Shown here one piece after another: positions 6,292 to 35,113 of a stretch of 47,955 bases of DNA. The notes beneath the pieces are model-generated. The model was given only the letters and a program-made list of their open reading frames with translations, was not told the origin of the DNA and did no database searches. Both the position numbers and the translations under genes were made by a program. The DNA lies in the NCBI GenBank assembly GCA_902509965.1, contig CABWZP010000007.1, positions 1-47,955 on the forward strand, written 5' to 3'. Source of the DNA: an uncultured SAR86 cluster bacterium. GTDB lineage: Bacteria; Pseudomonadota; Gammaproteobacteria; Magnimaribacterales; D2472. Each line of letters begins with the position of its first letter. The stretch's first letter is position 1.

Positions 6292-7380
6292 ATGATCATA
6301 GGCGTTCCATCAGAAGTAAAAAATAATGAATTTAGAGTTGGATTAACTCCTAGCTCGGTTAAAACTATAGTTAACCATGGTCATTCTGTATATATACAAA
6401 ATAATGCTGGATTTAATGTAGGTTTCTCTAATGATGACTATATTAATGCTGGTGCTAAAATTTTAGACACAGGAGCTGAAATTTATTCCCATGCTGAACT
6501 TGTTATAAAGGTTAAAGAGCCCATTGAGTCCGAGTACCAATATTTACGAAACGATTTAACATTATTTACTTATCTTCACCTTGCAGGTGATCTTGTAAAC
6601 GCAAAAAAACTTATTGCTACAGGGGTAAGAGGTATTGCATATGAAACAGTAACCTCAGATGACGGATCTATGCCACTGTTAGCACCTATGAGTGCAATAG
6701 CTGGTCAAATAAGCATTGTAGTAGGCTCATATCATTTACTTAAACACAATTTAGGAAAGGGAGTATTGATCGGTTCTTTTGGTGATATTTCTCCTAGAAT
6801 AGTAACTGTAATTGGAGGAGGTGTTGCAGGAACTGAAGCTGTTTCAAAAGCTGTTGCAAATAATGCTTTCGTAAAAGTCATTGACCTTTCTAAGGATAAA
6901 CTTGTTGAGCTTGAAGCAAGATTTGGGAATCAGAATATTGAATATATATTATCTTCACCACAGAATATTCAAGATGCTATTGCTATCTCTGACTTGGTTA
7001 TTGGAGCAGTTTACGTCATTGGCAAAGAAGCCCCTAAGATAGTTACTCTAGATATGCTCAAAGCAATGAAGCCTGGGACCGTCATGGTAGATATCTCCAT
7101 TGATCAAGGAGGCTGTTTTGAATCAAGTAAACCAACAACTCATGATAATCCAACTTTTTTAGTTGATGGTGTTCTTCATTACTGTGTAACAAATATGCCT
7201 GGTGCTGTTCCTTTAACAGCAACGGAAGCTTTAAATAAAGAAACTTTACCTTATATTTTAGAATTGGCAAATAAAGGAATTGAAGTAGCTTTAGATGAGA
7301 ATATTCATTTAAAAAATGGTCTTAATACTCAAGATGGCAAGATTATGCATCCAGCAGTAGATGAAGCTTTAAATAAATAA
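6292..7380 (+). CDS. ald: Alanine dehydrogenase
   Basis: MIIGVPSEVKNNEFRVGLTPSSV..., TYLHLAGD, GSMPLLAPMSAIAGQ, VIGGGVAGTEAV, DQGGCFESSKPTTHDNPTF. Confidence 0.95.
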   Translation: MIIGVPSEVKNNEFRVGLTPSSVKTIVNHGHSVYIQNNAGFNVGFSNDDYINAGAKILDTGAEIYSHAELVIKVKEPIESEYQYLRNDLTLFTYLHLAGDLVNAKKLIATGVRGIAYETVTSDDGSMPLLAPMSAIAGQISIVVGSYHLLKHNLGKGVLIGSFGDISPRIVTVIGGGVAGTEAVSKAVANNAFVKVIDLSKDKLVELEARFGNQNIEYILSSPQNIQDAIAISDLVIGAVYVIGKEAPKIVTLDMLKAMKPGTVMVDISIDQGGCFESSKPTTHDNPTFLVDGVLHYCVTNMPGAVPLTATEALNKETLPYILELANKGIEVALDENIHLKNGLNTQDGKIMHPAVDEALNK

Positions 7381-7452
7381 AATCTTTCATTTTTTTATAT
7401 AGTATTTTTTTTATTCTCTATATATAATTTTTGTGAGTGTCGTATTTATAGA

Positions 7453-7482
7453 TTGACATGGGGATTTATAAATATATATATT
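7453..7482 (+). promoter_or_regulatory. Predicted sigma70-like promoter of the intergenic RNA locus
   Basis: TTGACA at 7453-7458; TATATA at 7475-7480 (16-bp spacer) or TATATT at 7477-7482 (18-bp spacer). Confidence 0.5.
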
Positions 7483-7485
7483 CTT

Positions 7486-7650
7486 ACCCTACGAAGGAGG
7501 TGGTCCTATTAGTATTAATATTAAATCAGGAAATGGAGGGTTCACCTTTTGACAAAAGGTAAATCATAAATTTTCGACTGTAAGTTATAATTTATAACGA
7601 ACAGATTTTTTTATAAAACCCTCAAATTAATTTTTGGGGGTTTTTTTTAT
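7486..7650 (+). ncRNA. Candidate structured small RNA / leader transcript with 5' extended Shine-Dalgarno-like sequence
   Basis: AAGGAGGTGGTCC at 7494-7506; hairpins ACCTTTT-GAC-AAAAGGT (7544-7560) and CTGT/GTTATA...TATAAC/ACAG (7578-7604); intrinsic terminator at the 3' end; no convincing CDS. Confidence 0.5.
7615..7650 (+). terminator. Rho-independent terminator
   Basis: Stem AAAACCCTCAAA / TTTGGGGGTTTT (one G-U) followed by T-run. Confidence 0.85.
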
Positions 7651-7659
7651 TTTTTAAGT

Positions 7660-8523
7660 ATGCAATTAAGATATTGGTTTTTATTAGTTTTACTCGGTGC
7701 CATTTGGGGAAGCTCTTTTATGTTTATTAAAATAGCTACACCTGAGTTCGGTCCAATTACATTAGTTGGTTTGCGGTTATTACTCGCAGGATCATTATTT
7801 TTGCCTTTCCTTTTAATGCCAAAATATTTAAATCAGGTAAAAGGCCACACAAAGAAAATTTTGTTTCTTAGCTTATTTAATACTGCTATTCCTTTTACTT
7901 TGTTTTCTTATGCTTCACTTAGCTCCAATTCTAATATGTTAGCAATATTAAATTCTTCTGCAGCATTATTTACAATGATTGTTGCCTATTTTTGGATTAA
8001 TGAACAAGTGAGTAAAAAACAAATATTAGGATTAATAATTGGCTTTATTGGAATAGTGGTTCTAGTTAACCCTTTTAATGCTCAAACAACATTATTAGCA
8101 AGCTTGGCTTGTTTATTAGCCGCTCTATGCTATGGAATATCAAATGTATTTATACAAAAATTTGCTACCAAAGTGAATAAATTAGTTCTTATTGGATGGT
8201 CATTAAATATTGGTGGATTAATTTATTTACCTTATACAATTTCATCATTTCCTATAGTTGCACCATCAAATGAAGCTATCATGAGTCTTATTTGGTTAGG
8301 TGCTGTTGGAACAGGTTTAGCATTTATTGGTTATATAAGACTAATTGAAAAAATAGGTGCCGTTAGAACTTCAACAGTTGCATACTTTCTTCCAGTATTC
8401 GGAATTATTTGGGGAAATATTTTTTTAAATGAACAAGTTACCTTTGTTGTTGCAATTGGATGCTTTATGGTTTTAACAGGAATATTTGTTGCTAATACCA
8501 GTAAGCCTTCAACTAAGTTGTAA
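7660..8523 (+). CDS. EamA/DMT-family transporter
   Basis: GAIWGSSFMFIKIATPEFGPITLVGLRLLLAG and duplicated TM architecture. Confidence 0.92.
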   Translation: MQLRYWFLLVLLGAIWGSSFMFIKIATPEFGPITLVGLRLLLAGSLFLPFLLMPKYLNQVKGHTKKILFLSLFNTAIPFTLFSYASLSSNSNMLAILNSSAALFTMIVAYFWINEQVSKKQILGLIIGFIGIVVLVNPFNAQTTLLASLACLLAALCYGISNVFIQKFATKVNKLVLIGWSLNIGGLIYLPYTISSFPIVAPSNEAIMSLIWLGAVGTGLAFIGYIRLIEKIGAVRTSTVAYFLPVFGIIWGNIFLNEQVTFVVAIGCFMVLTGIFVANTSKPSTKL

Positions 8524-12210: not shown

Positions 12211-12287
12211 TGGCGCGCCCGGGAAGATTCGAACTCCCGACCCCTTGGTTCGAAGCCAAGTACTCTATCCAGCTGAGCTACAGGCGC
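12211..12287 (-). tRNA. tRNA-Arg (anticodon TCG)
   Basis: Cloverleaf: acceptor GCGCCTG/CGGGCGC, anticodon stem CTTGG-CTTCGAA-CCAAG, T-arm GGGAG-TTCGAAT-CTTCC, encoded CCA. Confidence 0.93.
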
Positions 12288-35036: not shown

Positions 35037-35113
35037 TGGCGCGCCCGGAGAGATTCGAACTCCCGACCCCTTGGTTCGTAGCCAAGTACTCTATCCAGCT
35101 GAGCTACGGGCGC
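35037..35113 (-). tRNA. tRNA-Arg (anticodon ACG)
   Basis: Acceptor GCGCCCG/CGGGCGC, anticodon stem CTTGG-CTACGAA-CCAAG, T-arm GGGAG-TTCGAAT-CTCTC, encoded CCA. Confidence 0.95.

Follow-up and report, generated by a model that had tools for sequence, protein, structure and literature searches.

What is encoded in the gap between ald (6292-7380) and an EamA transporter gene (7660-8523), in which a short segment matches the complement of the 3' end of 16S rRNA? The locus was analyzed in a 47,955-nucleotide stretch of DNA from an uncultured SAR86 cluster bacterium (contig CABWZP010000007.1; hereafter, the window) and in related genomes, and all of its features described below lie on the + strand. 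An earlier note on this DNA had proposed a new structured RNA locus, and this was supported: the locus is conserved and structured, carries a promoter box and a terminator of its own, and is absent from Rfam. What such an RNA may do is a separate matter, and the arguments below lead to a tentative reading in which the RNA is also a very short mRNA.

The segment complementary to 16S rRNA was confirmed as an extended Shine-Dalgarno (SD) sequence, AAGGAGGTGGTCC (7494-7506), complementary to the 16S 3' end over 13 nt. A duplex computation with the tail GGATCACCTCCTTA taken from the 16S gene of the same genome (locus L182), yielded 13 contiguous pairs, including one G-U, and an energy of -24.7 kcal/mol; the best SD among the genes of the window (41 ORFs, each 120 aa or longer) reached -8.3 kcal/mol, with a median of -4.2. 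Across 125 homologues, the mean duplex energy was -22.6 kcal/mol, all values being -19.5 kcal/mol or stronger, and the motif GGAGGTG(A/G)T(C/T) was found in every aligned homologue. Exact AAGGAGGTGRTCC sites occurred only twice in the genome (1.08 Mb): at the RNA locus and on the antisense strand of the 16S 3' end. Since the duplex is far above those of the window genes and only two exact sites are present, the match is not background. Strong capture of 30S subunits by this SD is well supported as a predicted capacity of the RNA.

The limits of the predicted transcript differed from those assumed previously. A -10 promoter box, TATATAAT (7421-7428), is kept in nearly all homologues of family f1 (one of the four families, f1 to f4, of the order), ~75 nt upstream of the SD, and its position would place the transcription start near 7433-7437. 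The predicted RNA is therefore ~215 nt long (about 7433-7650), not ~160 nt, and the SD sits ~60 nt inside it rather than at its 5' end. A TTGACA (7453-7458)/TATATA promoter, as proposed before, was discarded because both boxes lie inside a conserved hairpin (P1) and the TTGACA is conserved only within the genus. On the other hand, the hairpins and intrinsic terminator claimed downstream of the SD were borne out by folding (z -2.4): the terminator (7614-7650) consists of a 12-bp stem and a T run, and has equivalents in homologues, including those ahead of convergent genes.

Conservation in relatives was strong. A DNA search of 101 genomes detected clear homologues across the family and also in others of the order, and 33 of them were used to build a sequence model (R1). 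With this model, the RNA was found as a single copy in 137 of 203 order genomes (many of them incomplete) and in 35 of 40 good assemblies, and all four families were represented; genomes of this order are AT-rich and 0.7-1.8 Mb in size. Neither model nor pattern detected the RNA in two f4 genomes (G063 and G066) or in several g7 genomes; the two f4 genomes are 95-97% complete, so that they have likely either lost the RNA secondarily or diverged strongly in it. The absence from several f4 and g7 genomes indicates that the RNA is dispensable. Outside the order, rare homologues were found in Gammaproteobacteria by model, DNA similarity, and exact pattern: Pontibacterium granulatum, an Ectothiorhodospiraceae MAG, and a Gammaproteobacteria MAG are named carriers. 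When a second model (R2) was run with fast filters, a class sample of 369 genomes gave two strong matches outside the order, both previously found homologues, and a phylum sample of 299 genomes gave no strong match outside the order. A search with the ORF pattern returned the same two outside-order matches together with two chance-like ones. No match to the RNA was found in phage records, nor in viral contigs searched with one exact pattern.

In the comparison with Rfam 15 at the gathering threshold, no match other than tRNAs was obtained for the window and 11 homologous loci, and no Rfam family covers the RNA. The only gathering matches of the window itself were two tRNA genes on the - strand (12214-12287 and 35040-35113). 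The best sub-threshold match was the greA leader (RF01769), at chance level (23.7 bits against a gathering threshold of 60), and shares with the RNA merely a hairpin plus a terminator; the tmRNA model matched neither the window nor the homologous loci. No description of the RNA was found in the literature outside subscription papers and supplementary alignments. A marine motif without an Rfam entry, Ocean-VI, is listed by Weinberg (2010). The RNA family is uncatalogued as far as Rfam is concerned.

Directly behind the SD is a reading frame of 14 codons (7508-7552), with an ATT start at 7508, two bases past the end of the SD match, and a TGA stop (7550-7552) followed by C; the predicted peptide is (M/I)SINIKSGNGGFTF*. 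The earlier statement that no ATG, GTG, or TTG lies at proper spacing holds literally, while the idea of a start-less RNA does not, as this ATT frame is conserved. Within the order, the start codon is ATT (113) or ATC (8) in 121 of 121 cases and never ATG, at a spacing of 7-9 nt from GGAGG in all 121. The frame has 14 codons in the 125 homologues except one (13 codons), and the stop is TGA in all but one (TAA), with C directly after it in 124 of 124 ORFs of standard length. No in-frame stop was present among 1027 codons of 79 distinct ORFs (68 and 65 in the other two frames); column-shuffled alignments averaged ~88 stops, and none of 1000 shuffles reached zero. In four distant homologues, ATG occupies the start position: MSNDSMCAASGATC, MSNECINGASGGTC, MSNRCIIGAPGGTC, and, in P. 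granulatum, MSNLLVEHTPGVTC. These alignments point clearly to selection on the openness, length, start, and stop of the frame; constraint on the amino acids of the peptide appears mild and is less clear. Of the three roles suggested in the earlier note, that of encoding a short peptide with a rare start codon agrees best with the sequence, given the open 14-codon frame, the ATT/ATC start, and the ATG of distant homologues. Another ORF with a canonical start (7458-7562; 34 aa) was dropped because its ATG is limited to the genus.

The conserved fold overlaps the second half of this ORF and its stop codon. Upstream of the SD, hairpin P1 (7443-7474; loop TGACATGGGG) was re-paired in all four families when loci were compared by eye, and its loop takes part in a pseudoknot (PK): TGGGG (7459-7463) pairs with CCCTA (7487-7491), just upstream of the SD. 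The GGGG/CCCT pairing is replaced by AGAGAA/TTCTC in f4. Helix P3 joins GGAAAT (7529-7534), inside the ORF, to ATTTTC (7570-7575), and covaries through GGAAAC/GTTTTC, GGAATA/TATTCC, GGATTA/TAATCC, and AGAGAC/GTTTCT. In type-level permutation tests, which take strand types as independent and ignore the tree, the observed fit of PK strands to their own partners was reached in only 1 of 2000 permutations, and that of P3 in 0 of 2000. A further pairing, P0, may connect TGTC (7438-7441), near the inferred 5' end of the RNA, with GACA (7551-7554), which overlaps the stop codon; its partners change to GGTGTC/GACACC in f4 and to GGCGTT/AACGCC, GCGTC/GACGC, and AGTC/GACT in distant members. P0 is only moderately supported, because mismatched exceptions exist and the changes were judged by eye at fixed positions in an AT-rich region. 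The stop codon is also enclosed in a hairpin, ACCTTTT GAC AAAAGGT (7544-7560), similar in f1 relatives and swapped for an adjacent hairpin, GGGTTAACCC, in f2 and f3. Hairpin P4 (7578-7604) is variable in sequence, and its pairing is kept in homologues by fold and inspection. Homologues in f2 and f3 (L044-L048, L052-L054, L057-L062, and L065) have, ahead of the terminator, an additional 3' hairpin whose conserved loop reads approximately GTTGARATAC; this hairpin is missing from f1 and f4, and its loop may be a contact site for protein or RNA.

Our preferred reading, tentative and given somewhat less than an even chance, is that of a stand-alone structured RNA of ~215 nt that would also serve as a mini-mRNA, in which ribosome capture and IF3-sensitive initiation gate the fold. 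The SD would capture the 30S subunit unusually strongly, and IF3 would hold back productive initiation at AUU, as for infC, so that the initiation status would be reported by how frequently ribosomes enter the ORF and reach its stop. A ribosome over codons 7-14 and the stop would melt helices P3 and P0, and the RNA would toggle between a free folded and a ribosome-engaged state of different stability or trans activity; the peptide of 14 aa may be a by-product, or may contribute. This model is suggested by ATT/ATC being fixed in the order when a single base change would give ATG, the start used by distant relatives, and by the combination of the 16S pairing, the open frame of fixed length, the covariation of P3 and PK, and the changing neighbours (see below). 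It is known that IF3 represses non-canonical starts and that infC of E. coli starts with ATT (PMC5472188). In infC of this genome (G000; L188) and of G005 (L189), no ATG, GTG, or TTG was found near the expected N-terminus, and the start is likely ATA or ATT. On the other hand, infC of G008 (L186) has an in-frame ATG, which counts against the model, as do the P0 exceptions and the genomes without the RNA. Since distant relatives start with ATG, gating by IF3 can be neither the ancestral nor the universal function.

The main rival is a plain small-peptide gene, whose product would be the 14-aa peptide and whose RNA structure would serve to protect a short mRNA and to set its expression. The fixed length agrees with a peptide product, the coding score exceeds that of column shuffles (z 2.1; 9 of 500), and the C-termini of distant peptides (SGGTC*, SGATC*, and PGVTC*) resemble SGGTA* and LGGNC* of f3/f4, with third codon positions changed. 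However, amino acids vary widely within the order, those conserved best fall where the RNA helices and the stop hairpin lie, and variability by codon position (0.86, 1.05, and 0.90 bits) is not enriched at third positions. A maximal SD combined with a minimal start codon would also be odd for such a gene, and we consider this explanation possible but doubtful.

Next in order is an untranslated decoy or storage RNA, which would bind the 16S tail and sequester 30S subunits, the ORF being incidental. Very strong SDs hold 30S subunits, and both the extreme strength of the duplex and the lack of a canonical start in the order would suit this role. The conserved open frame, free of stops and fixed in length, with its invariant UGA-C end and with ATG in distant homologues, disfavours a decoy or standby RNA that acts without translation and makes it improbable.

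The cis-leader suggestion, in which the RNA would act as a leader or attenuator for the EamA gene behind it, depends on synteny. In f4 and at nearly all f1 loci, the RNA is followed by EamA, and a short ORF with a terminator behind it recalls leader-peptide attenuators. In f2 and f3, however, the gene that follows is either convergent or unrelated, and the upstream genes also vary between families; homologues outside the order sit among unrelated genes, while the fold and ORF are kept. With no co-oriented downstream gene conserved beyond the break in synteny at f2/f3, this suggestion was rejected as very unlikely, and the persistence of fold and ORF while neighbour genes change indicates that the RNA is a gene of its own. 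Finally, a CsrA-sequestering sRNA of the CsrB/RsmZ type, for which several conserved GGA triplets (including those of the SD and CAGGAA) might speak, is ruled out to near certainty because no CsrA gene was found in the 13 f1 and 2 f4 genomes searched, both families carrying the RNA. CsrA was present in all f2 and f3 genomes searched, and its absence from f1 and f4 amounts to the loss of a global regulator across the lineage.

Returning to the translation-gated reading, each of its elements has a counterpart elsewhere. Similar to the start region of infC, the conserved AUU/AUC start of the RNA follows an SD, an arrangement that IF3 represses (PMC5472188); they differ in that infC is a protein gene, whereas here the frame comprises 14 codons within a free-standing structured RNA, behind an SD that is complementary to the 16S tail over 13 nt. 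The predicted RNA also resembles dual-function small RNAs, as it would be a short independent transcript that has a terminator of its own and carries a conserved short ORF (as judged from the promoter box, terminator, and changing neighbours). Such RNAs, of which SgrS is an example, are sRNAs carrying a short ORF. In contrast to the SgrS type, the ORF here is central to the fold and has a non-canonical start, and there is neither sequence relation nor a known base-pairing target. Leader-peptide attenuators share the 14-codon ORF (trpL also has 14 codons), helices over its end, and an intrinsic terminator behind it; the RNA differed from them in having no conserved downstream gene or run of control codons, and in its covarying pseudoknot upstream of the SD. 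We regard it as a new RNA family that joins features each known elsewhere: a short ORF in a small RNA, an IF3-sensitive start, and an extended SD. A more far-reaching proposal, which we consider unlikely, is a new class of free-standing RNA that would measure initiation, through 30S capture, an IF3-gated AUU, and refolding of a pseudoknotted RNA upon passage of the stop codon, and would regulate in trans.

The ORF of this RNA is invisible to gene callers because it has no ATG, GTG, or TTG start and only 14 codons. The strong SD before a conserved AUU frame suggests an RNA that may act by the capture or sensing of ribosomes. An RNA family outside Rfam has been kept in most members of the streamlined and abundant marine order SAR86, and its extremely strong ribosome-binding site together with a fixed weak start, replaced by ATG in distant relatives, makes it a concrete candidate for sensing or buffering initiating ribosomes.
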